A DNA stretch of 64,000 nucleotides. Source: Arachidicoccus rhizosphaerae (GTDB taxonomy: Bacteria > Bacteroidota > Bacteroidia > Chitinophagales > Chitinophagaceae). A program made the position numbers and the translations under genes. The stretch lies in contig NZ_FNQY01000002.1 of assembly GCF_900107765.1 (NCBI RefSeq), positions 62,001 to 126,000 on the forward strand. Reading direction: 5' to 3'. Below the pieces are notes generated by a model. That model had not been told where the DNA came from. It saw only the letters and a list, made by a program, of their open reading frames with translations, and did not search any database. Within the stretch, counting starts at the first letter, position 1. Each line of letters begins with the position of its first letter. This document shows, one piece after another, positions 4,911-63,934 of this stretch.

Positions 4911-6455
4911 ATGACACAGATGACAAAAAAAGGGTTCTCAAAAACATGCCTGCTGCTGGCCACCATACTGCTGGCGCTTACAGGGATAACGCCCGGTTTG
5001 CAGGCCCAGGTGGCCAGGCGTCCCAATATTATTTTTATTATGGCAGACGACCTGGGCTATGGCTCACTGGGCTGCTACGGACAAACGAAGATTAAAACGC
5101 CCAATATTGACCGGCTGGCCGCCTCCGGCCTGAAATTCACCCAGTATTATGCAGACCCGATTTGCAGTCCTTCCAGATGCGGTCTGCTCACGGGAAAAGA
5201 TATGGCCCATGCTTATATCCGGGATAACTATGAAATAGGCGGCTTTGATTTTACCGACGCCGGAGAAAGAGGACAGATGCCTTTGCCGGATAATACGGTG
5301 ACCTTTCCGGGACTCTTAAGGCAGGGAGGTTATACAACGGCCCTGATTGGTAAATGGGGGCTGGGAGGACCTAATACTTCCGGTGTGCCGACCAGGCAGG
5401 GATTTAATTACTTCTTCGGTTATCTGGGACAGCGTCAGGCGCATAATTATTATCCGACGCATTTATGGCGAAATGACCAGAAAGTAATGCTGGGCAATAC
5501 TTATTTTTCACCGCATCAGTCCTTTGCTAAGGGAGCTGATCCCAATGATATAAAAAACTACGCCAGGTACAGCGGCCGGGTTTATTCCTGCGATACCATG
5601 GCAGCCGATGTCCTTCGCTTTATCAGGGAACATACCTCCCGTCCTTTCTTTTTGGAGTTTTCCCCGACCATTCCTCATGTGGCTTTACAGGTGACTCAGA
5701 AAGCATTAGAAAGATATGAAGGACAGTTTGATGATCAGCCGATGCCGAATACGGGCTACCTGCCTTCTTTTCGTCCAAGGCAGACTTATGCCGCCATGAT
5801 CTCCTTGCTGGATGATTACGTCGGGCAGATAGTAGCCACTTTAAAAGAACAGGGGTTACTGGATAATACCCTGATTATTTTTACCAGTGACAATGGCGCT
5901 CCGGACGGGGAAGGCGGCACACCGGCACGTTATTTTGAAGCCAATGGACCGTGGCGCGGGTATAAAGGCGATGTTTTTGAAGGAGGTATCCGGGTACCGC
6001 TGATTGCCTGCTGGCCGGGTGTTATTCAGGCGGGCAGCCAAACGGATCATCCAACAACGATTTGGGATATGTTTGCGACCTTTTGCGATTTATCCGGAAC
6101 CAAGATTCCAGAAAACAGCTTTGCCGGCAGGGTGGAAACACAAGGGATTTCCATTGCGCCTTTACTCACGGGAAAGGGACAGCAAAGCACTCATGCGTAT
6201 CTGTACTGGGAGCTGGCCAGCCGTCACAACGGGGAACAGGCGGTCAGGCTGGGGGACTGGAAGGGGATTCGCCTAAATGCCAAAGAGGATCCCAGTGGCC
6301 CTGTTTTACTCTATAACCTGAAAACAGATCCGGCAGAGAAAATTGATCAGGCGGCCGCTCATCCGGATATTGTGCAAAAAATAGAGCAGCTGATGAAAAA
6401 AAGAACTTTATCCCACTTGAATGAATGGAACTTTGAATATAAAACGCCCGGTTAG
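4911..6455 (+). CDS. Secreted sulfatase (arylsulfatase A family)
   Basis: A 514-residue type I sulfatase that hydrolyses sulfate esters, probably from sulfated glycans or aryl sulfates in the periplasm or at the cell surface. Residues 1-33 form a signal peptide ending LQAQ. NIIFIMADDLGYGSLGCYG (39-57) supplies the two metal-binding aspartates, and C85 sits in the formylglycine motif CSPSRCGLLTG. IGKWGLG and SDNGAPDGE are further family motifs. The C-P-S-R cysteine must be matured by a formylglycine-generating enzyme, or an anaerobic equivalent, which is not in this window. No SusC/SusD partners or polysaccharide-use genes are adjacent, so the substrate is unknown. ATG 4911 is used; ATG 4920 is an alternative. 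Confidence 0.93.
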   Translation: MTQMTKKGFSKTCLLLATILLALTGITPGLQAQVARRPNIIFIMADDLGYGSLGCYGQTKIKTPNIDRLAASGLKFTQYYADPICSPSRCGLLTGKDMAHAYIRDNYEIGGFDFTDAGERGQMPLPDNTVTFPGLLRQGGYTTALIGKWGLGGPNTSGVPTRQGFNYFFGYLGQRQAHNYYPTHLWRNDQKVMLGNTYFSPHQSFAKGADPNDIKNYARYSGRVYSCDTMAADVLRFIREHTSRPFFLEFSPTIPHVALQVTQKALERYEGQFDDQPMPNTGYLPSFRPRQTYAAMISLLDDYVGQIVATLKEQGLLDNTLIIFTSDNGAPDGEGGTPARYFEANGPWRGYKGDVFEGGIRVPLIACWPGVIQAGSQTDHPTTIWDMFATFCDLSGTKIPENSFAGRVETQGISIAPLLTGKGQQSTHAYLYWELASRHNGEQAVRLGDWKGIRLNAKEDPSGPVLLYNLKTDPAEKIDQAAAHPDIVQKIEQLMKKRTLSHLNEWNFEYKTPG

Positions 6456-6515
6456 GCCGTACACTGCAGCATTGTATTTAAAGGACTTTACTGCTGCTTA
6501 TTTAAGAGGATACAA

Positions 6516-6575
6516 CTAAAGAACCAGGGCTACTTACATCTTCATGGCAGGAGGTAAGTAGCCCTGGTTCTTTAG
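6516..6575. terminator. Perfect 22-bp inverted repeat between convergent genes
   Basis: CTAAAGAACCAGGGCTACTT followed by AC at 6516-6537 is repeated inverted at 6554-6575 around a 16-base loop. It lies between the sulfatase (plus) and the DinB gene (minus) and probably ends both. Neither side carries a proper T-run, unusual for an intrinsic terminator. Confidence 0.6.
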
Positions 6576-6600
6576 GTTATGGCCTGGTTTTAAACTCCGG

Positions 6601-7179
6601 CTATAAAGTACTTTGGTCAGCGCTCGGGCCATAACTGGGAGGAAGCGGGATATTATTTAGTCTTAAATACACCCCTAACTGAGCCCTATGGTGGACAATC
6701 TGACAAAAACACATGCGCAGGGTGGCCAGTTTGGTATCTTCTGCAAGCGTTATATCGCCGTTGCTTAAAGTCCAGGTATCAATAAGTATGTCTTCGGTAG
6801 CCGACTGAATGGCCTCGTGCCCTTGCTGATAGGATTTGTCATATAAGGCCAGTACATCCTGGGTGGTGACTGCGTGAGTGGGCTCATAGGGGCTCGCTGC
6901 AAAGTCCAGTCCGCTGGTGTGAAGGACCATCGCCGCCCAGGCGGGCAGCTCTGCCAGGTGATTGGCCAGTTGCTTTACCGTCATGCTTTTGGGATGGGGT
7001 TGCCAATCATAAATAGTATCCGGGATACGGGAGAGCATTTCCCGGGTCGTCCGGTTTTCTTTTTCCATTTCTTTTAAAAGGACCGGGATATGGTCCAGGC
7101 TCGAAGGGCGGGTGGTGTTTTGCGCTGTTGATGCGGATTCGTTGGTAGCAAGGTTTGTCGCAATGTTTGTGCTGCTCAT
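6601..7179 (-). CDS. DinB-like four-helix metalloprotein
   Basis: A 192-residue protein with the DinB/YfiT-like fold: a four-helix bundle that usually carries three metal-binding histidines. Visible features are the helix with LANHLAELPAWAAMVLH and the C-terminal helix QIVHHRAQLGVYLRLNNIPLPPSYGPS, a very typical DinB_2 ending. Some relatives are thiol transferases or damage-induced, but most have no known substrate. The first 25 residues are low complexity (Asn, Thr, Ala, Ser) and the true start could be internal. A perfect palindrome lies 27 bases upstream (7206-7236). A WYL regulator is the next gene upstream on the same strand, but a terminator separates them. Confidence 0.8.
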   Translation of the reverse strand: MSSTNIATNLATNESASTAQNTTRPSSLDHIPVLLKEMEKENRTTREMLSRIPDTIYDWQPHPKSMTVKQLANHLAELPAWAAMVLHTSGLDFAASPYEPTHAVTTQDVLALYDKSYQQGHEAIQSATEDILIDTWTLSNGDITLAEDTKLATLRMCFCQIVHHRAQLGVYLRLNNIPLPPSYGPSADQSTL

Positions 7180-54056: not shown

Positions 54057-54953
54057 ATGTCAAACGAAAACAGACAATTAACGACAAAATCGCTCTTTGA
54101 AAGAGTGGACGTCAAGCAGAAATTCAAGGATTTATTAGGCAATCGTGCCAGTTCATTCATGACAAGCGTTTTACAGATTACGGCTCAAAATTCACTACTT
54201 GCAAAAGCCGATCCAATGAGCGTTTATCAGAGTGCAGCCGTTGCGGCTACTTTAGATCTTCCTTTGAATCAGAACTTAGGATTTGCTTATATTTTGGCCT
54301 ATAACACCAAGCAGCCAGACGGTTCATACAAGGTTGTTGCTCAGTTTCAAATGGGTTATAAGGGATTCATCCAGTTAGCACAGAGAAGCGGACAGTTTAA
54401 GACCATATCCGCTGCCCCAATATATGAAGGCCAGCTGGTGGAACAAAATCCCCTTACAGGTTTCTTATTTGATTTCACAGCGAAAACATCAGATAAAATA
54501 ATCGGTTATGCCGCTCACTTCGCCCTTTTAAACGGTTTTGAGAAAACCTTATACATGACTGTAGAGGAGCTGCAAAAGCATGGAATGAGATTCAGCCAGA
54601 CGCTCAAAAAGGGTTACGGCCTATGGAAAGATGATTTCGATTCAATGGCTCAAAAGACAGTTTTAAAATTACTCCTTTCCAAGTTTGCGCCGCTTTCTAT
54701 TGAGATGCAAAAGGCGGTTATCACAGACCAGTCAGTAGTAAATGACGCAGACACGGAGGATGTCACCTATGTTGATAATGACACTGTTACAATCGACAAG
54801 GAAGCAGAAAGAATCAGATTGTTAATCGAAGATGCCAAAACAATTGAGGACCTGGATAATGTTTTTGAGTTCGTTTCCGACGATCAAATGGATCTATTCC
54901 TGAGTAAGAAAGAGGAATTATCAAAGTTGTTAACTAACAAAAAATCAAAATAA
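54057..54953 (+). CDS. recT: RecT-type single-strand annealing recombinase
   Basis: A 298-residue phage recombinase that coats single-stranded DNA and anneals complementary strands. The family core is visible: SFMTSVLQITAQNSLLAKAD, SAAVAATLDLPLNQNLGFAY and FQMGYKGFIQLAQRSGQFKT. Its stop overlaps the start of the next gene (TAATG), which encodes a nuclease that would supply the 5-prime-resected substrate. Together they form a RecE/RecT-like or lambda Exo/Bet-like module. Confidence 0.95.
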   Translation: MSNENRQLTTKSLFERVDVKQKFKDLLGNRASSFMTSVLQITAQNSLLAKADPMSVYQSAAVAATLDLPLNQNLGFAYILAYNTKQPDGSYKVVAQFQMGYKGFIQLAQRSGQFKTISAAPIYEGQLVEQNPLTGFLFDFTAKTSDKIIGYAAHFALLNGFEKTLYMTVEELQKHGMRFSQTLKKGYGLWKDDFDSMAQKTVLKLLLSKFAPLSIEMQKAVITDQSVVNDADTEDVTYVDNDTVTIDKEAERIRLLIEDAKTIEDLDNVFEFVSDDQMDLFLSKKEELSKLLTNKKSK

Positions 54954-55726
54954 TGGACTTTTCAAATTTATTATTCCGTGCTTCCGGGGTGGGTTATTTA
55001 ATGACCAGTCCTAAATTAAAAGCCGACAAAGAAGCCGGTAACTTGTCAGAATCGGCAAAAACAAACTGTATTGACGTCTATGTAAGCGCAAAGTACGGAC
55101 GTAACACCGATATTCAGACCAAGTACATGACTAAAGGCAATCAGGTTGAGGAAGATTCAATTACCCTTTATTCCAGACTTCATAAAAAGTTCTACAAAAA
55201 GAACGAAGAACATCTGAAAAACGACTTCGTTATGGGTACACCAGACCTTTTTACCGGTGAATCCATCCATAACGCTCAAACTGTCATAGATATTAAGAGT
55301 TCCTGGGACTTATTTACGTTCCACCGAACCAACTCAAAGGATATCAATCCTATCTACTGGTGGCAATTACAAACTTACATGTGGCTCACAGGGGCAAAAA
55401 AAGCCTATTTGGCCTACTGCCTGGTAAATACACCTGTAGCCATGATTGAAGAAGAAAAAAGGCGCCTATTCTATAAAATGAACGTGGCTACTACGGAAGA
55501 TCCCCTATATCTGGATGCCTGTGAAGCTTTGGAGCTTTCTATGACTTACGACGATATCCCCATTCAGGAAAGGTTAATTGAATACGAGATTCCCAGAGAT
55601 CAGGATGCGATTAATTGTCTGGCCGGAAAGGTCATAAAGGCAAGGGCGTTTATACAGAAATATGAGGATCAAATGACGGCGTATATCAAACCTGATCTTA
55701 ATTCATTACTTAAGAAAGTATCATAA
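54953..55726 (+). CDS. YqaJ-like PD-(D/E)XK exonuclease
   Basis: A 257-residue nuclease partner of RecT. D98 in MGTPDLFTGE, D113-x-K115 in VIDIKSSWD, and Q138/Q140 in WWQLQTYMW match the lambda-exonuclease/YqaJ active site, with E67 in the helix before it as the likely fourth residue. It would resect double-strand ends to give ssDNA for RecT. Translationally coupled to recT by a 1-base overlap. Confidence 0.9.
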   Translation: MDFSNLLFRASGVGYLMTSPKLKADKEAGNLSESAKTNCIDVYVSAKYGRNTDIQTKYMTKGNQVEEDSITLYSRLHKKFYKKNEEHLKNDFVMGTPDLFTGESIHNAQTVIDIKSSWDLFTFHRTNSKDINPIYWWQLQTYMWLTGAKKAYLAYCLVNTPVAMIEEEKRRLFYKMNVATTEDPLYLDACEALELSMTYDDIPIQERLIEYEIPRDQDAINCLAGKVIKARAFIQKYEDQMTAYIKPDLNSLLKKVS

Positions 55727-55800: not shown

Positions 55801-57009
55801 ATGCAAACAATTGAAATCGTAGAAACCGGAAACGAACTGGTATTAGCCCAGGAAAAAGTAAACACCGGATTAGTGGCTTTTAACAACAAAAAATCAGAAT
55901 TGGAAGCCCTGGCACAGTCTGCAGCCGAAATTACTATTAACGGTGTAGGCGATAAAGAGGGCTACAAATTAGCCGATGCCAAGCGTAAGGAACTCAAAAA
56001 AGAGCGTGTCTCTATCTCTAGTCAGGGTAAGGAAATGAGAGATACTATTAATAAGGTATCAAAAGATATAATTGAAAAAGAAAAGGAACTAATCGCCATC
56101 ATCGAAAAGGAAGAAAAAAGACTTGTTGAGGAACAGGATAAAGTAGACGCTGAAAAAGAAAGAATCCGCCTTGAAGAAATCAGAAAAGAAGAAGAAAGGA
56201 TTCAAAAAAGAGTAGATGGTCTCCGCCAGTACGGTTATGAAATCGACCTGTCCGCTTTAAAGTCTCTTTCTGACGAGGATTACAATCAACTCCAGGAAAC
56301 CGCAAAAGCCAATTACGAGGCCGAGCAAGCCCGGTTGGAAGCTGAAAGATTGGAAGCTGAGAAAAAGGCCGAGGAAGAGAGGCTGGCAAGGGAAGCAGAG
56401 GCTAAAAAACTAGCTGATGAACGCAAAGAACTGGAAGAATTAAGAAAAAAGCAGGAAGAGGCTCAAAAGTTGATCGATGAACAAAACGCCAGAATTGAGG
56501 AAGAGGCCCTTAAGGTACAGCAGGAGAAAGAAAACGTCAGGACACGGCTAATTGCTTCATTGGGCATCCCATTCAATTATGTAGAAAACGCCTACATAGA
56601 GCAAGATATTAACGTTCGGGTTAGTGATATCAAAAGCCTGAACGATACCGAATGGGATGCCCTGGTAAATTCCGTAACCGAAAGAAAGATCATTATCGAC
56701 CAGGAAAGAAAGGCTATGGAGGCAGAAATAATGGAACAAGCTAAAAAGAAAGCCGCCGCCGATGCATTGCAGGCCGAAAAAGACCGCAAAGCCGCCGAGG
56801 AACAGGAACGGCTAAGAAAAGAGGAAGAAGCCAGAATTAAAGCTGAACAGGCCCCGGATCGAACCAAGATTAACGAATACATAAAGTCAATCAAAGATCT
56901 GGAAGTTCCTGTAATGAAATCGGCCAACGGGAAAAAGATCATGGCTTCAATTCAGGAACTGGTAGGCAAGTTAACCTCTTATTCAACTGAAAAGGCTAAT
57001 ACGCTTTGA
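55801..57009 (+). CDS. DUF1351-like coiled-coil phage protein
   Basis: A 402-residue protein dominated by a long coiled coil (about 70-250: KERVSISSQGKEMRDTINKV, then Glu/Lys/Ala-rich repeats) and a C-terminal segment (INEYIKSIKDLEVPVMKSAN). The DUF1351 group is common next to recT in Firmicutes and Bacteroidota phages and may help recombination, though its action is unknown. Its TGA overlaps a TTG start (TTGA) for the 53-residue protein that follows. The highly biased residue composition makes many false frames in this stretch. Confidence 0.75.
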   Translation: MQTIEIVETGNELVLAQEKVNTGLVAFNNKKSELEALAQSAAEITINGVGDKEGYKLADAKRKELKKERVSISSQGKEMRDTINKVSKDIIEKEKELIAIIEKEEKRLVEEQDKVDAEKERIRLEEIRKEEERIQKRVDGLRQYGYEIDLSALKSLSDEDYNQLQETAKANYEAEQARLEAERLEAEKKAEEERLAREAEAKKLADERKELEELRKKQEEAQKLIDEQNARIEEEALKVQQEKENVRTRLIASLGIPFNYVENAYIEQDINVRVSDIKSLNDTEWDALVNSVTERKIIIDQERKAMEAEIMEQAKKKAAADALQAEKDRKAAEEQERLRKEEEARIKAEQAPDRTKINEYIKSIKDLEVPVMKSANGKKIMASIQELVGKLTSYSTEKANTL

Positions 57010-57167
57010 CCCTGACAAAAGATATTATCGACCCATGGCGCCGGTTATTAGGCAAGAAAGGCGAACAGGTAAAGCTTATTTCTGACCATTCAGGGGTCTT
57101 AATTGTAGAAAACGATAAAGGGCAGCGGTTCGCAGTAAATTCAAAATACATCAAAAATGAAAATTAG
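57006..57167 (+). CDS. Small phage protein (53 residues, TTG start)
   Basis: From the TTG overlapping the upstream stop the frame reads MTLTKDIIDPWRRLLGKKGE, then QVKLISDHSGVLIVENDKGQ and RFAVNSKYIKNEN. It is a beta-rich mini-protein like a small SH3/KOW-type domain (KLISDHSGVLIVENDKGQRF). It overlaps the next gene start by 11 bases. The 0-frame fills nearly all of a 147-base gap between two genes, and the protein has a natural composition. Function unknown. Confidence 0.6.
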   Translation: MTLTKDIIDPWRRLLGKKGEQVKLISDHSGVLIVENDKGQRFAVNSKYIKNEN

Positions 57168-57342
57168 TTTAAAAATAATGATTGGTCTGGCTTGTATTAT
57201 AGCTGACATGTTCGCTACAAACTTCCTGACTTCATTAGTTACTTACCCGTCGGACATAACGGTCATTTTGGGGATTATAGGGCTTGCGGCTCTTATTTTA
57301 ATAAATATTTTTTTAATCAAACTTTTAACAAAAACAAAATGA
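57157..57342 (+). CDS. Small two-helix membrane protein
   Basis: A 61-residue membrane protein with two predicted helices (IMIGLACIIADMFATNFLTS and ITVILGIIGLAALILINIFL). Its stop overlaps the next start by 4 bases, so it is coupled to the SPFH lipoprotein. The order suggests that they work together in the inner membrane. Confidence 0.7.
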   Translation: MKISLKIMIGLACIIADMFATNFLTSLVTYPSDITVILGIIGLAALILINIFLIKLLTKTK

Positions 57343-58109
57343 GAAAGACAATTTTCACATTGATTGCGGCTATTGCGCTGCTTGCATCATGCACCCGAAT
57401 TGATGCCGGGTATGAAGGGATTTTAGTAAACCAGTATGGTACAGAGAAAGGGGTGTCAAATGTTCAGATCAAAACGGGTCGTGTGTGGTATAATCCATTC
57501 ACTCAGGACGTGGTAGAATTCCCTTTGTTCGTAAAAACGATTGATTATTCAGCGTTTACCGTGAACGCCAAAGACGGATCTGTTTTCACTATCGATCCTA
57601 CACTCAGCTATGCCGTTGTTCAGGGGAAAGCTCCTTTCATCTATGTAAAGTACAGAAAGGACTTAGACGAGATTACAACTACAACAATGTTCAACTACGT
57701 GAAAAACGCCTTTAGAATCCAGATGAACAAGTACACCACAGAGCAATTAATAAGCAATAGGCAGCAATTTGAGGACAGTGTAGAGGCAAACTTAGGAAAA
57801 ACGCTAGAATCAGATGGGTTCAGACTTGAATCCCTCACATCTGGGCTACAATATCCAAAATCTATTGTCGAGGCGGTGGATGCAAAAAACAGAGCGGTTC
57901 AGGAATCCATGCAGGCGCAAAACCAACTAGTCAGGGATTCCATCAATGCCAGAAGGGAGGTGATTGTGGCGGAAGGAGAAAGACAGGCAAACCTACTCAG
58001 GCAATCATCCCTTACAAACCTGCTCATACAACAACAGTTTATTGAGAAATGGGACGGGAGGACGCCTTTATATGGAAACAGCCCGGTAGTATTCAAGAAC
58101 GTTCAATAA
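57339..58109 (+). CDS. SPFH/band-7 domain lipoprotein encoded by the prophage
   Basis: A 256-residue protein with a signal peptide and lipobox (ALLASC, lipid-modified Cys18) and a prohibitin/stomatin-like SPFH domain (YEGILVNQYGTEKGVSNVQI, VFTIDPTLSYAVVQGKAPFI, SDGFRLESLTSGLQYPKSIV). The long C-terminal helix (VDAKNRAVQESMQAQNQLVR, VIVAEGERQANLL) is the oligomerisation coil. SPFH proteins form rings or scaffolds on membranes and in bacteria have been tied to FtsH regulation and phage-related roles. A copy in a phage early region, coupled to a small membrane protein, is notable. Whether it acts in DNA replication, lysis or exclusion is unknown. Confidence 0.82.
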   Translation: MRKTIFTLIAAIALLASCTRIDAGYEGILVNQYGTEKGVSNVQIKTGRVWYNPFTQDVVEFPLFVKTIDYSAFTVNAKDGSVFTIDPTLSYAVVQGKAPFIYVKYRKDLDEITTTTMFNYVKNAFRIQMNKYTTEQLISNRQQFEDSVEANLGKTLESDGFRLESLTSGLQYPKSIVEAVDAKNRAVQESMQAQNQLVRDSINARREVIVAEGERQANLLRQSSLTNLLIQQQFIEKWDGRTPLYGNSPVVFKNVQ

Positions 58110-58617: not shown

Positions 58618-59232
58618 ATGGCAATAGTAATACACGAAAAGCAACTTGAAGATCTAATTTTTGAAGACATTGAAGAAACATTAGGGTCTACAATTGAATT
58701 AAAGGGTTTGCATCTTAATCTTGGATATTATATTTCAGCATTTAGGCAATTAAGGTTTGGCGAATACGGAATATCGGATATCATAACTATTGGTTTTGAA
58801 GAAGGGTCGATAATTGTAAATGTTATTGAGCTAAAAATAGTCCCCTTCAGCTTTGATCATCTATCGCAATTAGCACGATATGTCAAGGCAGTAAAGGAGA
58901 TGATTAATAATTCTCCAATAAGGCGGACTGTAAAGATTTACGGAACATTAATAGTAGAGCAATTTCCTGTTAACGACAGCCTATATCTACCTTATATATT
59001 GTCTGACAACATAGCAATATATTCTACAGAATATGGACTAAGCGGAGTGAAGTTTAGTAAACTCCATAGTAATTGGGTTAGAGGTGAAGGCAAATTATCC
59101 ATAAATGACACACTAAAAGAAGAGGATAAGAAGGAATTAAAAAAGATGCTTCAATGGTTTTACGCTCAATCCATTTACCAGATACCAGAATTCTCCAAAA
59201 GCGAATCAAACAACAAAGAAGGCCCATTTTAG
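58618..59232 (+). CDS. NucS-like PD-(D/E)XK endonuclease (putative)
   Basis: A 204-residue protein with D54 (YGISDIITIG), E71-x-K73 (NVIELKIVPF) and the following QLARYVKAV helix (84-92), the pattern of NucS/DUF91-like restriction-type nucleases. In archaea and actinobacteria NucS cuts mismatched or branched DNA. Here it may process replication or recombination intermediates of the phage, but the N-terminal binding domain of NucS is absent, so the substrate is unknown. It lies 12 bases before the replication initiator. Confidence 0.68.
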   Translation: MAIVIHEKQLEDLIFEDIEETLGSTIELKGLHLNLGYYISAFRQLRFGEYGISDIITIGFEEGSIIVNVIELKIVPFSFDHLSQLARYVKAVKEMINNSPIRRTVKIYGTLIVEQFPVNDSLYLPYILSDNIAIYSTEYGLSGVKFSKLHSNWVRGEGKLSINDTLKEEDKKELKKMLQWFYAQSIYQIPEFSKSESNNKEGPF

Positions 59233-59244
59233 AATTTTACCAAT

Positions 59245-60087
59245 ATGCCTAATAGAGTTTTAAGAGACTGGACAGATTCAGAAAGGATAAATGAACTAAG
59301 CGTAAATGCCGAATGCTTATTTGTTCGATTAATGATGAAAGCAGATGATTACGGAAATTTTAATGCTAATTCAAAATTAGTCAAGTCCTTATGTTTTCCG
59401 CTGAAAGATTTTAGAGAAGCCGACATTACCCGATGGATCCAAGAGTTGGAGACTTCCGGTCTGATCGCCTTATATGAAGCCGATAACAAAAAGTACTTAC
59501 ATATTATAAATTTTGGTCAAAGATTAAGAACAATGAATCCAAAATTTCCGCAATATATTGACAATCAACAAACAGGTAATCCATGTCCGCAACCCGCTGT
59601 CATTTGTCCGCAACCTGCTGTCATTTGTCCGCCTGAAACGAAACGAAACGAAGTAGAAACGAATATAGATACTAAAGTATCTATGTCGACTGTAGTCGAC
59701 GAGAAAGCGCCCCTTCCATACGACTCTGTTGAAAAAACAAAAACCGGTATCTGGGAGTATCTAAAAACCGGACCAAAAGAAGCAGAGCCTTATGTCGACT
59801 TCTGGAATCTATTTGCCGCGGAAAAGGGAGTGCCTAAGGTCAGGGATATCACGAGGAAACGACGGCAAAAGTTAAAAGTCAGGCTTGGTGAGAAAAGCTT
59901 CAATTTCTGCAACATCCTGAAAATGGCCGGTAATTCAGAATTCCTGTTGAGTCATGGCTGGTTCGCTTTTGACTGGATCATCGAAAACGATTCAAACTAT
60001 TTAAAAATCCTTGAAGGCAATTACCAACCAAAAGAAAAAAACGATCAGAAAGAACCCGTTAAATCCCCTAAAATCGTAAAAATCTAA
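59245..60087 (+). CDS. Phage replication initiator (DnaD/O-protein-like)
   Basis: A 280-residue protein. The N-terminal domain (NRVLRDWTDSERINELSVNA, LFVRLMMKADDYGNFNANSK) is a winged helix typical of phage replication proteins that bind origin DNA and load the helicase. The middle is a low-complexity linker with a sevenfold-related repeat (CPQPAVI twice), encoded by DNA iterons, then a C-terminal domain (WNLFAAEKGVPKVRDITRKR). Its stop overlaps the DnaB gene (TAATG). The arrangement initiator-helicase parallels lambda O-P. The gene carries direct repeats and palindromes at 59584-59700 that look like an origin. Confidence 0.8.
   Translation: MPNRVLRDWTDSERINELSVNAECLFVRLMMKADDYGNFNANSKLVKSLCFPLKDFREADITRWIQELETSGLIALYEADNKKYLHIINFGQRLRTMNPKFPQYIDNQQTGNPCPQPAVICPQPAVICPPETKRNEVETNIDTKVSMSTVVDEKAPLPYDSVEKTKTGIWEYLKTGPKEAEPYVDFWNLFAAEKGVPKVRDITRKRRQKLKVRLGEKSFNFCNILKMAGNSEFLLSHGWFAFDWIIENDSNYLKILEGNYQPKEKNDQKEPVKSPKIVKI
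59584..59632. repeat. 21-bp tandem direct repeat (iteron-like) in the initiator gene
   Basis: Two near-identical copies of TGTCCGCAACCCGCTGTCAT plus T (59584-59604 and 59605-59625, one mismatch) are followed by a partial third copy TGTCCGC (59626-59632). They encode CPQPAVI in tandem. Confidence 0.85.
59635..59660. repeat. GAAAC pentanucleotide repeats
   Basis: Three adjacent GAAAC units (59635-59649) and a fourth at 59656-59660, between the iterons and the palindromes. Confidence 0.8.
59665..59700. repeat. Two back-to-back perfect palindromes in the initiator gene
   Basis: ATAGATACT-AA-AGTATCTAT (59665-59684) has 9-bp arms. GTCGACT-GT-AGTCGAC (59685-59700) has 7-bp arms. They abut without a gap, next to the iterons. 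Confidence 0.85.
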
Positions 60088-61493
60088 TGAAAGAACTGGA
60101 ACAATTCGTACCGCTGCACTCGCAGGAAGTTGAGGAATCCGTCATTGGCATAATGATACAATCCCCCAATTTGGCAGCTGAGGCCTTCGATACGCTCGTT
60201 TCTGATTATTTCTATACAGATAGCTGCAAAAGATTTTTTAAGGGCTTAAAATGGCTGTATGACAGCTTAAACACAATCGACGTTATTTCGCTTGTAACGG
60301 CTTTAAAAAAACAGGGAACTATCCAGGAAGGTGATGTTTTTAATCTTTCCCAGATTGTCGGCAAAACAACGCCGCTTCAAAGCATATTCGATACTCATTC
60401 AAAAATGCTGATTGAGTACTACATGAAACGTAAGGTTGGCGATCTGGGAATAGATTTTTTAACAAAAGCTAAAGACGAGACTGCGGACGCTTTCGATGTT
60501 TTAAATGGTGCTTCGGTGGATTTAATGAAAGTCCAGGAGCAGGTAAGTAAAGGCGATGAGATTACGATTTCTCAATTGGTAGACCAGGTTTTTGATCAGA
60601 TTGAACAGGCAAAATCAACCGGTAAAATCGGATTAGATACCAAATTTACCGCCCTGAACAAAAAAATAATGGGATGGGTTGCACCGGATTTGATCATTTT
60701 GGCAGCACGTCCAGGGATGGGGAAAACGGCGCTCATGTTATCAGCTGCTAAAAAACTGGCAATAGACCAAGGTATACCGGTAGCTATTTTCTCAATCGAA
60801 ATGAGTTCCGGCCAGTTAGTTACCCGGTTACTTTCTATCGAAACTCAAATCTCTCATGAAAAAATAAGACTGGGCGACCTGAACGAACAGGAAGAAGATC
60901 TTTTGAACGAATCAGGCATAAGAATCTCAAACGCGCCTTTGCATATCATTGACAACGCAATGACAATCAGCGAGATTAGGACAAAATCAGTCATTCTCAA
61001 AAGAAAATACGGTATCAAAATGATTTTCATTGACTACCTGCAAATCATGTCAGGTATGAATGAAAAGAATAAAAACCGTGAAGCCATCGTATCGGAGATA
61101 AGCAGAGGCTGTAAGAGACTGGCAAAAGAACTTGAAGTTCCTGTAATGGCCCTTAGTCAGCTATCCAGGGGTGTAGAATCCAGAGAAAATAAAATGCCGA
61201 TGCTGTCGGACTTAAGAGAATCCGGTGCTATTGAACAGGATGCAGATGAGGTTATTTTCCTGATGAGACCGGAATATTACGAAATAAACGAGGTAGAAAT
61301 GGAGGGCGAAGTTTTACCTGCCAATGGTCTTGTAGTAGCTAATGTAGCCAAAAACAGGCACGGGTCACCCGGAAAAGTGGTTTTAGGGTTTACACCTCAC
61401 TGTATGACATTCAAAGATCACGAAAAGAATATTCAGCCAATGGGTCAGTACGAAGGCTGGACACCAATACCACAAGAAGAAAACCCCTTTTAA
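60087..61493 (+). CDS. dnaB: Phage replicative helicase, DnaB family
   Basis: A 468-residue hexameric 5-prime to 3-prime DNA helicase. The N-terminal helical domain (HSQEVEESVIGIMIQSPNLA) is followed by the RecA-like domain with Walker A ARPGMGKT (207-214), Walker B IFIDYLQIM (D316) and the C-terminal motif LSQLSRGVESRENKMPMLSD, then LRESGAIEQDADEVIFLMRP. It would unwind DNA at the phage origin, loaded by the initiator encoded just before it. The start overlaps the initiator stop by 1 base. Confidence 0.96.
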   Translation: MKELEQFVPLHSQEVEESVIGIMIQSPNLAAEAFDTLVSDYFYTDSCKRFFKGLKWLYDSLNTIDVISLVTALKKQGTIQEGDVFNLSQIVGKTTPLQSIFDTHSKMLIEYYMKRKVGDLGIDFLTKAKDETADAFDVLNGASVDLMKVQEQVSKGDEITISQLVDQVFDQIEQAKSTGKIGLDTKFTALNKKIMGWVAPDLIILAARPGMGKTALMLSAAKKLAIDQGIPVAIFSIEMSSGQLVTRLLSIETQISHEKIRLGDLNEQEEDLLNESGIRISNAPLHIIDNAMTISEIRTKSVILKRKYGIKMIFIDYLQIMSGMNEKNKNREAIVSEISRGCKRLAKELEVPVMALSQLSRGVESRENKMPMLSDLRESGAIEQDADEVIFLMRPEYYEINEVEMEGEVLPANGLVVANVAKNRHGSPGKVVLGFTPHCMTFKDHEKNIQPMGQYEGWTPIPQEENPF

Positions 61494-62431: not shown

Positions 62432-63934
62432 ATGACACATGGATCACTCTTTTCAGGTATAGGTGGCGCCGAATTAGCAGCCGAGTGGGCAGGATGGGAA
62501 AATGTATTCCACTGTGAAATAAACCCATTCGGACGTAAAATATTAGACTATTACTGGCCAAAAGCAAAATCATATGCAGACATTAAACAAACAGACTTCA
62601 CTATTTGGAGAAACAGAATTGATGTACTCTCAGGCGGATTTCCTTGCCAGCCCTTCAGTACAGCCGGGAAGCGAAAAGGCACAGAAGATGACCGCCATCT
62701 CTGGCCGGAAATGCTTAGAGCAATTAGAGAAATTCAGCCGCGCTACGTCGTGGGTGAAAACGTTCGTGGGTTTACTAATTGGCAGTCAGGATTGGTTTTC
62801 GACGAGGTGCTATCTGACCTGGAAAATGAGGGCTACGAAGTCGCACCGTTTTTACTTCCAGCTTGCGGTGTCAATGCCCCCCACAGAAGAGATAGAATCT
62901 GGATTGTTGCTTACGCCCCGGGCATCGGAAAACGACCAGGGCAGCAAGGCGAACGGGATGAAAGACGGGCAGAGCAGTTGGAAGTCACAAGGGCGGGGTG
63001 CGACATTGACAACCGTAATGAAGCAGGGTCTGTTACCCACGCCAGTAGTGATGGACACAAACCAAGGGGATTTAAAAAAGATAGATGCAAGGCGCGAGAA
63101 AGCGAAAGCGAAAGGCACAAACGGGAATGGATTTGGGATGACGGTCGGGGAATTAGCCAATCGGGGGATGCTCCCGACTCCGACAGCCCAAGATTTCAAA
63201 CGGAGAGGCCCGAACAGCAAGCAACAAGGTTTGAGCAATACGGAGAACTGGACGGGCATGTTACCTACCCCGACAGCCCAAAATTGGAAAGGCGGCCGAA
63301 CAAAAGAGGGATTAGAAGCAGCGGGGCGGAACTCCACCAACAGCCTGCCGGATTTCTTCGCCCAGACTGGCAAGACTTCCCAGCTGTCAGCCCGATTCGT
63401 TGCAAGTATGATGGGATTTCCCAAATCATGGTTAGAAATATAAAATCAGAAGTATATGCCACAATTAGAAAAGATTACACCGACAAAGATTTGCAAGAAG
63501 TGTGGGAAGCCTTTCAATCGGAGGAGATTCAATGGAAGATTGGAAGATTATACAAGATTCATGAGCCGACTATATTGCTCCAAACAGTGCAGCTATGTCA
63601 GACCCCCGATAACGCACAAGGGAAGTTTTCACCATTTGGCGAGAAAGCATCGCAAAGACTCATGCGAAAATTGCGGAGCCTTGGATCATTTGGATGTTCA
63701 CCACGTGGACGGGAACTGGAAAAACAATTCAGTTTGGAATTTAATGACTCTCTGCCACACTTGTCACATGAAATTGCATTGGCGGCAATGGAGATCCAGG
63801 AAGAATCGGAAAGGTTCGCAACATGGCTCCGAAACGAATCAATAAAAGGTTTCGGCAACGCATGGGTGCCACAAGTTGCCTATGAGATATTCAAAGTTAT
63901 TAATCAAATGGAATCACAAATAAACGTAGCGTAA
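62432..63934 (+). CDS. Phage DNA cytosine-5 methyltransferase with embedded out-of-frame ORFs
   Basis: A 500-residue C5-methyltransferase that would methylate cytosine in phage DNA, probably to evade host restriction. N-terminal motifs are complete: motif I SLFSGIGGAELAAE (5-18), motif IV GGFPCQPFS with catalytic C72, motif VI ENV (109-111) and motif VIII RRDRIWIVAYA (152-162). Motif X is at the very end (GFGNAWVPQVAYEIFK, starting about 473). Between them, residues 165-335 are Arg/Gln/Ser-rich, and residues 340-470 lie over an HNH ORF in the +1 frame and look random. So the reading frame is intact, but the target recognition part is not conventional. The +1 frame encodes another long ORF over 62574-63443. 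Confidence 0.85.
   Translation: MTHGSLFSGIGGAELAAEWAGWENVFHCEINPFGRKILDYYWPKAKSYADIKQTDFTIWRNRIDVLSGGFPCQPFSTAGKRKGTEDDRHLWPEMLRAIREIQPRYVVGENVRGFTNWQSGLVFDEVLSDLENEGYEVAPFLLPACGVNAPHRRDRIWIVAYAPGIGKRPGQQGERDERRAEQLEVTRAGCDIDNRNEAGSVTHASSDGHKPRGFKKDRCKARESESERHKREWIWDDGRGISQSGDAPDSDSPRFQTERPEQQATRFEQYGELDGHVTYPDSPKLERRPNKRGIRSSGAELHQQPAGFLRPDWQDFPAVSPIRCKYDGISQIMVRNIKSEVYATIRKDYTDKDLQEVWEAFQSEEIQWKIGRLYKIHEPTILLQTVQLCQTPDNAQGKFSPFGEKASQRLMRKLRSLGSFGCSPRGRELEKQFSLEFNDSLPHLSHEIALAAMEIQEESERFATWLRNESIKGFGNAWVPQVAYEIFKVINQMESQINVA
62574..63443 (+). CDS. LPTP-repeat protein in the +1 frame of the methyltransferase gene
   Basis: A 289-residue ORF wholly inside the methyltransferase gene, one base out of frame. 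The start may be ATG 62574 or 62622. It carries MTAISGRKCLEQ, STRCYLTWKMRATK, FYFQLAVSMPPTEEIESG, four motifs LLTPRAS, LLPTPVV, MLPTPTAQ and MLPTPTAQ (about residues 112, 153, 199, 229), and ends SQLSARFVASMMGFPKSW. I recall phage database proteins with this same order (SGxxC...LTWK...TEEIE...LPTPTA...SxLxxxFVxxMMGFPxxW), usually called hypothetical. Its composition is more natural than the methyltransferase frame in the same stretch. Function unknown. Confidence 0.65.
   Translation: MQTLNKQTSLFGETELMYSQADFLASPSVQPGSEKAQKMTAISGRKCLEQLEKFSRATSWVKTFVGLLIGSQDWFSTRCYLTWKMRATKSHRFYFQLAVSMPPTEEIESGLLLTPRASENDQGSKANGMKDGQSSWKSQGRGATLTTVMKQGLLPTPVVMDTNQGDLKKIDARREKAKAKGTNGNGFGMTVGELANRGMLPTPTAQDFKRRGPNSKQQGLSNTENWTGMLPTPTAQNWKGGRTKEGLEAAGRNSTNSLPDFFAQTGKTSQLSARFVASMMGFPKSWLEI
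63456..63845 (+). CDS. HNH endonuclease ORF nested in the methyltransferase gene
   Basis: A 129-residue protein in the +1 frame of the methyltransferase. It has two zinc-finger-like pairs (C13/C16 in ICKKCGKPF, C41/C45 in YCSKQCS) and a second pair (C70/C73 in CENCGALDHL). Then comes the HNH core: DVHHVDGNWKNNSVWNLMTL and CHTCHMKLHW (H82, H83, N91, C100, C103, H104). HNH proteins nick or cut DNA; free-standing phage copies act in packaging or as homing enzymes. It ends 9 bases before the start of methyltransferase motif X (GNAWVPQ), so it lies exactly between the recognition region and motif X. Confidence 0.85.
   Translation: MPQLEKITPTKICKKCGKPFNRRRFNGRLEDYTRFMSRLYCSKQCSYVRPPITHKGSFHHLARKHRKDSCENCGALDHLDVHHVDGNWKNNSVWNLMTLCHTCHMKLHWRQWRSRKNRKGSQHGSETNQ

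Follow-up and report, generated by a model that had tools for sequence, protein, structure and literature searches.

Two overlapping genes in a 64,000-nucleotide stretch of the Arachidicoccus rhizosphaerae genome (the window; contig NZ_FNQY01000002.1, positions 62,001 to 126,000) encode a small membrane hairpin and an SPFH/Band 7 protein with a lipobox. They are the last two members of a four-gene overlapping chain, which has genes for a RecT annealing protein and an exonuclease upstream and for a replication initiator and the DnaB helicase downstream. In window coordinates the features are as follows:

54057-54953, + strand: RecT annealing protein (PHROG, E 2.3e-77)
54953-55726, + strand: exonuclease (PHROG, E 1.4e-41)
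55801-57009, + strand: 402-aa coiled-coil-like ORF, first of the overlapping chain (ORF list)
57006-57167, + strand: 53-aa ORF overlapping its two neighbours by 4 and 11 bases (ORF list)
57157-57342, + strand: small membrane hairpin, 61 aa, two helices (ORF list, model, family homology)
57339-57342, + strand: ATGA, the 4 bases shared by the hairpin stop and the SPFH start (sequence)
57339-58109, + strand: SPFH/Band 7 protein, 256 aa, prohibitin-like, PHROG 200 'lipoprotein' (Pfam, PHROG, profile, fold)
57339-57392, + strand: signal peptide with lipobox LASC, the Cys18 codon at 57390-57392 (sequence)
57396-57926, + strand: SPFH domain, residues 20-196 (Pfam match)
57858-58010, + strand: long helix, residues 174-224 (predicted structure)
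58011-58076, + strand: C-terminal motif LTNLLIQQQFIEKWDGRTPLYG (alignments of relatives)
59245-60087, + strand: replication initiator (PHROG, E 1.9e-18)
60087-61493, + strand: DnaB helicase (PHROG, E 4.9e-98)

The arrangement given in the preliminary description of this DNA, a lipobox SPFH gene sharing four bases with a two-helix gene and lying between recombination and replication genes, was confirmed by the open reading frames, the Band_7 match and the PHROG matches, and the tail that it had called coiled-coil corresponds to the long helix of the SPFH model. The 402-aa ORF at the head of the chain gave no match to Pfam or PHROG at E<=0.1, and the 53-aa ORF matched KH weakly (Pfam, E 0.011, under the cut-off). 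The element carrying the pair is a prophage: three of its products (major head protein, head protease, endolysin) match PHROGs, there is an integrase match towards its right end (contig position 154715-155173, adjoined by an ORF that by eye is terminase-like), and an IMG/VR record of 43,306 bases contains the same SPFH gene at 100% identity together with a second copy. Its left end was not located, exact repeats of more than 15 bases being absent from the stretch examined for the left attachment site. The pair had also been placed in a phage early operon; the gene order agrees with this and the genes may be expressed early, but promoter and terminator patterns around them occurred at chance (30 against 23.5 and 9 against 9.8, respectively, the promoter scan covering the sigma-70 type only). 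No RNA family was matched in the 64-kb window. A defence function for the pair found no support, neither the hairpin nor the SPFH protein matching PADLOC at E<=0.01.

The SPFH protein begins with MRKTIFTLIAAIALLASC, a signal peptide followed by the lipobox cysteine (LASC, Cys18), which is the signature of a bacterial lipoprotein. It matches Band_7 (Pfam) over residues 20-196 with E 3.1e-22 and 79.9 bits against a curated cut-off of 23.6, placing it in the SPFH/Band 7 superfamily, and matches PHROG 200 'lipoprotein' over residues 5-249 with E 6.8e-53. All 38 aligned SPFH relatives match PHROG 200 as well, and by profile the window protein is a member of this known phage family, which is N4 gp20-like according to the annotation of Shigella phage Moo19. 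Relatives at E<=1e-3 were found in 651 of 50,697 named phage records, all of them below 60% identity and the closest (about 52%) in crAss-like phages. Cys18 and, in the C-terminal motif, W238, G240 and P243 are invariant or nearly so in alignments of relatives. An AlphaFold model of the single chain, built from 47 window and IMG/VR sequences, reached a mean pLDDT of 84.7 and a pTM of 0.65. Foldseek ranked human prohibitin first among solved structures (E 6.5e-15, TM 0.61), followed by chains of HflKC, stomatin, erlin and QmcA entries, and VIA-align superposed the model on human prohibitin with Z 17.9 and an rmsd of 5.8 Å over 208 aligned residues. Run against solved chains, a profile of the 38 relatives matched prohibitin (1.7e-21), erlin (1.1e-9), HflC (4.3e-9), QmcA (3.5e-7) and stomatin (2.9e-5), and no chain named HflK at E<=0.001; none of the NCBIfam families, those for HflC and HflK included, matched the protein at E<=0.1. 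Judged by profile and predicted fold, the closest of the solved SPFH proteins is prohibitin (SPFH4).

A lipid anchor had been regarded as less usual for an SPFH protein. Within this family the remark does not hold: among the 72 SPFH proteins whose domain start could be recognised (from a set of 75 non-redundant proteins), 66 carry a cysteine at most 14 residues ahead of the domain and 51 have a canonical lipobox, by the pattern of this analysis. The residue at position +2 is Asp in four relatives (L060, L061, L072, L113) and Thr in the window protein; Asp at +2 is an inner-membrane retention signal in E. coli. The SPFH protein is probably lipidated and may be retained at the inner membrane. 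Published work records the detection of a phage SPFH protein by mass spectrometry in two phage preparations, which fits expression of the protein and does not necessarily make it part of the virion (PMC10892097, PMC6034870). In the record of Cellulophaga phage phi4:1 (L056) the SPFH protein bears the note 'part of structural ...', a hint of virion detection.

The 61-aa partner was modelled as two helices, residues 3-28 and 33-59 (pLDDT 90.6). Across the 54 hairpins found directly upstream of SPFH genes (see below), lysine and arginine number 137 in N-terminal tails, 273 in C-terminal tails and 19 in loops, that is, 410 in tails against 19 in loops. Because these residues are concentrated in the tails, both ends of the hairpin are predicted to be cytoplasmic and its loop (TYPSD in the window) periplasmic. 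A search of named phages with the 61-aa sequence returned nothing, even at E 10, so that the family is visible only via profiles and position. Hairpin profiles from Bacteroidota phages and from Proteobacteria phages align with a probability of 96.7% and E 3.5e-10 (a comparison made without an unrelated-hairpin control), the alignment centring on an I-S-A-x-(D/N/S)-T-like motif ahead of the second helix. PHROG 1130 'membrane protein', the family of the N4 gp19-like partner, is matched by 12 of the 32 aligned hairpins (best E 4.3e-16) but not by the window hairpin at E<=0.1, which is linked to hairpins of the PHROG 1130 type through alignment and position; the annotators of Moo19 liken its pair to gp19 and gp20 of phage N4. 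Searched against Pfam, NfeD included, the window hairpin gave nothing at E<=0.1 or at 1, and for the 32 hairpin relatives NfeD is absent among the 25 listed of 71 weakly matched Pfam families. A holin family was matched by one of the 32 (E 0.045, among 25 listed of 34 families). The best result of a fold search of the hairpin in viral models was not significant (E 0.75).

Relatives of the SPFH gene were gathered from IMG/VR (in two of the scans the best 80 of 259 and the best 80 of 124 relatives), from named phages (26 regions) and from related genomes. The 284 loci scanned included 278 that yielded 284 SPFH ORFs, reduced to 75 full-length ones at 80% identity, the window's among them; three genes too near a contig end were left out and 72 were counted. 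To count as a partner, an ORF had to be no longer than 135 aa, contain two hydrophobic segments and end around the SPFH start, between 90 bases ahead of the longest start and 260 bases beyond it. Such an ORF lies directly upstream of 54/72 SPFH genes, compared with 17/262 control genes at the same loci when all ORFs are considered (Fisher p 1.5e-31, kinship ignored). A stricter count on called genes gave 36/72 against 5/298, its misses being partly wrong gene calls, and when the SPFH genes were clustered at 50% identity the hairpin was found in 11 of the 18 clusters. The spacing seen most often is an overlap of exactly four bases (17 of the 54 pairs), and two-segment ORFs upstream of SPFH are also annotated as genes in phage records. 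Furthermore, a profile of 32 hairpins was run on loci absent from its making, which, like those of the pairing count, span some kilobases around SPFH. At 43 such loci (1,709 ORFs) there were 22 matches at E<=1e-3, all of them SPFH-linked and none elsewhere, with 18 ending within about 50 bases of the SPFH start and the other four being those of L066, L070, L016 and L027, described below. Among the eight weaker matches (E 0.001 to 1), five adjoin SPFH and two lie about 420 bases upstream; a weak match in L067 is on the opposite strand.

Eighteen of the 72 SPFH genes have no called upstream hairpin. At two of these loci (L066, L070) the hairpin lies one gene further upstream, at L016 there is a hairpin-profile match 1.1 kb upstream, at L072 the hairpin is present and the SPFH start was miscalled, and at L027 hairpin and SPFH are fused in frame (5812-6807, one open frame of 331 aa that crosses a poly-A run, where a sequencing slip is possible). 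Three Gram-positive phages (L063, L067, L068) have a one-helix protein in the hairpin's place, L215 has a second SPFH gene directly after the first, and the rest have no hairpin or a weak one. For the other neighbours, 82 of 119 listed ORFs were compared with PHROGs and no family occurred in more than two, so that no constant partner was found besides the hairpin. These counts and the chromosomal loci described below bear out the earlier view that the two genes are coupled, and by sequence comparison they are a conserved module of phages and bacteria. The earlier association with phage replication regions also agrees with the annotated named-phage relatives, 18/24 of which lie no more than 3 kb from a gene of the replication, recombination, nucleotide or transcription class (read by eye, with no base rate; 2/26 regions were without annotation). 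The hairpin partner, its homology across phages and its presence in chromosomes were not found described in the open-access literature searched. The pair occurs in crAss-like gut phages, in N4-like and jumbo phages and on many Bacteroidota chromosomes. With a conserved partner, what was a stray annotation becomes a two-protein system amenable to testing, both in E. coli with an N4-like phage and in bacteria apart from infection.

Matches to the SPFH protein were found in 8 of 99 related genomes, the window's own included, at E<=1e-20, and in 137 of 395 genomes in a phylum-wide search at E<=1e-25. We inspected 15-19 kb around seven relatives from close genomes and four from the phylum-wide search, and in 10 of these 11 surroundings the translated ORFs, read by eye, contained no phage-like genes; the SPFH gene lies beside gyrase A in L299 and beside peptidyl-tRNA hydrolase in L336. 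In L338 an integrase-like ORF lies 2.4 kb from SPFH, and this copy may be mobile. The four closest genome relatives (55-84% identity) all have surroundings without phage genes by eye, and the hairpin is present in two of them (L296, L297) and absent in two (L298, L299); three distant relatives (L293-L295, 31-32%) carry it. At 29 loci of the phylum-wide search a two-segment ORF lies upstream in 6 of the 11 with higher scores (L306-L316) and in 1 of the 18 weaker ones (L317-L334), namely L330, and 11 of the 18 weaker SPFH proteins have two membrane segments in their own N-terminus.

In named genomes the best 80 of 84 relatives gave 79 loci, located via the SPFH protein alone and with related copies kept. 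The top locus is from Arachidicoccus ginsenosidivorans (83% identity), and the others include Pontibacter (21), Chitinophaga, Adhaeribacter, Rufibacter, Flavobacterium and Sphingobacterium. A hairpin-profile match is present at the SPFH start in 63/79 loci and absent in 16/79, with no hairpin match elsewhere among 2,118 ORFs; most of the loci were inspected to 1.5 kb only, and some may be prophages. Judged by sequence, the nearest named SPFH relatives are bacterial-genome genes and the module is at least as bacterial as viral, a point missing from the earlier account of a phage gene pair. In a maximum-likelihood tree of 62 proteins, which holds only this family's phage and genome relatives, the phage label changes 11 times, at least eight of the changes being required by branches with good support; 11 of the 23 genome rows were checked for prophages, and with only these rows there are six changes, five of them forced. 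The two SPFH copies of the window prophage cluster with the chromosomal SPFH gene of a congeneric species (100/100). The host has three other Band_7 genes (contigs 23, 24 and 25; L007, L009 and L008), which by eye share neither the lipobox nor the C-terminal motif with the prophage copies, and its genome contains no other gene of the lipobox-SPFH type besides the prophage copies.

A second hairpin-SPFH pair, again with a four-base overlap, lies in the same prophage about 7 kb downstream of the first, just past the window end (contig 126214-127166; L006:8215-9167). The two SPFH copies are 87% identical, with saturated synonymous sites (about 127/154 differ in the mature part) and a dN of 0.09 in the mature part, indicating that the mature SPFH domain is under strong constraint. 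One reading would be that both copies must fit one ring. The saturated synonymous sites do not support a recent duplication of the pair. The two hairpin partners have diverged; the second helix is common to both, and the partner of the second copy has a hydrophilic N-terminus instead of the first helix.

Several known systems bear on the function of the pair. Among SPFH proteins, the groups connected with FtsH-type proteases are the prohibitins and HflKC (PMC2636767, PMC12624060, PMC13220708). In E. coli, HflKC encloses FtsH at the periplasmic face, and mitochondrial prohibitin sits on the matching side (PMC12624060, PMC13220708); FtsH binds HflKC via HflK (PMC13220708). In a 2009 survey, bacterial prohibitins (SPFH4) were predicted to contact FtsH and to have a periplasmic topology, and no NfeD partner was found for SPFH4 (PMC2636767). 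The hairpin could be the missing partner for this branch of bacterial prohibitins. The prohibitins (PHB1/PHB2; bacterial SPFH4) give the best profile and fold match and are expected on the same side of the membrane as the window protein, but they are anchored by a membrane helix, whereas the window protein has a lipobox, indicative of a lipid anchor, and a hairpin partner. HflK and HflC, which act with FtsH, have the SPFH fold and the periplasmic side in common with the window protein, which differs in giving no NCBIfam match and in its lipobox anchor. The QmcA-YbbJ system likewise combines an SPFH protein with a membrane partner, and QmcA matches the window model with Z 13.7, but its partner is an NfeD protein, unlike the 61-aa hairpin.

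Phage SPFH genes themselves appear in published tables and discussions (PMC1524935, PMC8540360, PMC4936722, PMC7150955, PMC13239085), and the comparison with HflKC and FtsH has already been raised for them (PMC8540360, PMC4936722). In Kayvirus, too, a phage SPFH gene (mbpS) was noticed to follow directly on a small membrane gene (mbpV; PMC7150955), MbpV having one helix and a charged tail where the window partner is a two-helix hairpin. The library entry of PHROG 200 consists of a name, with no function or partner, whereas the window family has the hairpin. The chromosomal SPFH lipoproteins of Bacteroidota (Arachidicoccus, Chitinophaga, Pontibacter, Flavobacterium and others) are as much as 83% identical to the window protein and share its hairpin at most named-genome loci, but lie outside any identified phage in 10 of the 11 surroundings inspected.

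We tentatively favour a mechanism in which a periplasmic prohibitin-like dome and the hairpin act in membrane-protein quality control, most likely via FtsH; taken as a whole it is a real possibility, though held at somewhat under even confidence. The SPFH domain behind a lipobox and the predicted cytoplasmic ends of the hairpin are consistent with a complex on the periplasmic side of the inner membrane. After export and lipidation at Cys18, the SPFH protein would stay at the inner membrane, and many copies of it may assemble there into a periplasmic dome like those of prohibitin and HflKC. The hairpin would form one membrane complex with it as an integral partner at the base of the dome, a position occupied in other SPFH systems by NfeD proteins such as YbbJ. 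Bacterial copies of the pair would serve quality control at the inner membrane, and phages may have taken up the pair repeatedly; during infection the dome might enclose or divert quality control, FtsH being the most likely target, which would keep membrane proteins of the phage or of the host intact. An FtsH gene is present in the host (785.7 bits), but FtsH is widespread, so that its presence says little, and no host protein scores over the cut-off for HflC (best 19.5 bits against 134.4). Against the mechanism, a shared fold shows no function, FtsH is held via HflK in E. coli and no HflK-named chain was matched, and a share of the SPFH genes has no hairpin in each of the counts above. The SPFH gene is also dispensable, some phages of one genus being without it (PMC8540360), and its spread over chromosomes leaves room for a general function in membrane stress, with phages as mere carriers. 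A wider version, which we consider doubtful, is that the hairpin is an overlooked partner of the prohibitin-type SPFH lineage and that the two proteins constitute a transferable dome-plus-hairpin machine, exchanged many times among crAss-like, N4-like, jumbo and temperate phages and bacteria, that would give the virus control of FtsH and membrane-protein turnover in hosts lacking HflKC. If the pair does act on FtsH, these would be viruses with their own prohibitin-type regulator.

In a rival explanation, the pair is a captured host stress gene that aids the lysogen or the host membrane and has no phage-specific role. The 79 named-genome loci (from the best 80 of 84 relatives, headed by the 83% match and with the hairpin at 63) and the four relatives of 55-84% identity in surroundings without phage genes by eye point this way, as do the 11 label changes in the tree (at least eight forced), the position of the window copies beside a chromosomal copy, and the integrase of the phage. 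However, published work describes SPFH genes in obligately lytic phages (PMC8540360) and calls crAss001-type phages incapable of lysogeny (PMC8375218), and relatives of the window gene sit in crAss-like phages; a benefit to the lysogen cannot apply in such lytic carriers, and we regard this explanation as unlikely. The preliminary description had itself suggested a membrane platform for phage DNA replication, in keeping with the position of the pair between recombination and replication genes. This idea is weakened by the predicted topology, since a lipobox before the SPFH domain would make the domain periplasmic and the hairpin, with its charged ends inside, would expose little besides short tails to the cytoplasm. 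In addition, in 6/24 annotated relatives no gene of this kind lies within 3 kb, and the pair is present in bacterial genomes, so that a replication platform now seems very improbable.

Two further explanations draw on neighbouring genes. The dome and hairpin at the inner membrane might block DNA entry by a second phage, and small two-helix membrane proteins with a role in superinfection exclusion are known from T4. In Moo19 the gene before the pair matches PHROG 1510 'superinfection exclusion' (E 5.3e-49), and the SPFH gene of phage SH19 is listed side by side with a superinfection exclusion gene (PMC3220722). Such a neighbour may carry the function by itself, however, the pair is widespread in bacterial genomes, and the hairpins have no clear match to an exclusion family (for 32 proteins, one match to SieB at E 0.021 among 25 listed of 71 families), making exclusion an improbable role. 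The pair might instead organise the membrane for holin, endolysin or Sec-dependent lytic enzymes. In Kayvirus, mbpS and mbpV lie between lysK and tgl, MbpV has been likened to holins and MbpS may help Tgl export (PMC7150955); a peptidoglycan hydrolase gene lies near SPFH in three crAss-like relatives and an endolysin gene in phage SEP9, and the second pair of the window prophage is 5 kb from the endolysin. On the other hand, the Kayvirus small protein has one helix and not two, the hairpins gave the single weak holin match noted above, and DNA-metabolism or transcription genes are neighbours in the window and in the 18/24 annotated relatives. Help with lysis or export thus appears rather improbable too, and the quality-control mechanism remains the reading that we prefer.

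Some minor observations concern gene structure. On the phage contig L215 (2908-4641), two different SPFH genes stand in tandem after one hairpin. In the crAss-like relative L082 (3001-4681) the SPFH gene is interrupted by an insert that carries an ORF for an HNH-type endonuclease and matches a group I intron (RF00028, 44.9 bits for a gathering score of 50, E 7.3e-10), and L083, L084 and L086 resemble it in their split SPFH gene. In the window, a 204-aa ORF between the pair and the replication initiator (58618-59232) has a weak nuclease-like Pfam match (YhcG_C, E 0.061, below the cut-off) and a match to the PADLOC candidate family PDC-S02 (E 2.4e-4). Beyond the helicase gene, a cytosine DNA methyltransferase ORF (62432-63934; PHROG 363, E 1.2e-71) contains two ORFs in another frame, one matching PHROG 1008 'DNA methyltransferase' (62574-63443, 8.1e-32) and one matching an HNH endonuclease (63456-63845, 6.4e-10), and forms an unusually long overlapping coding stretch.
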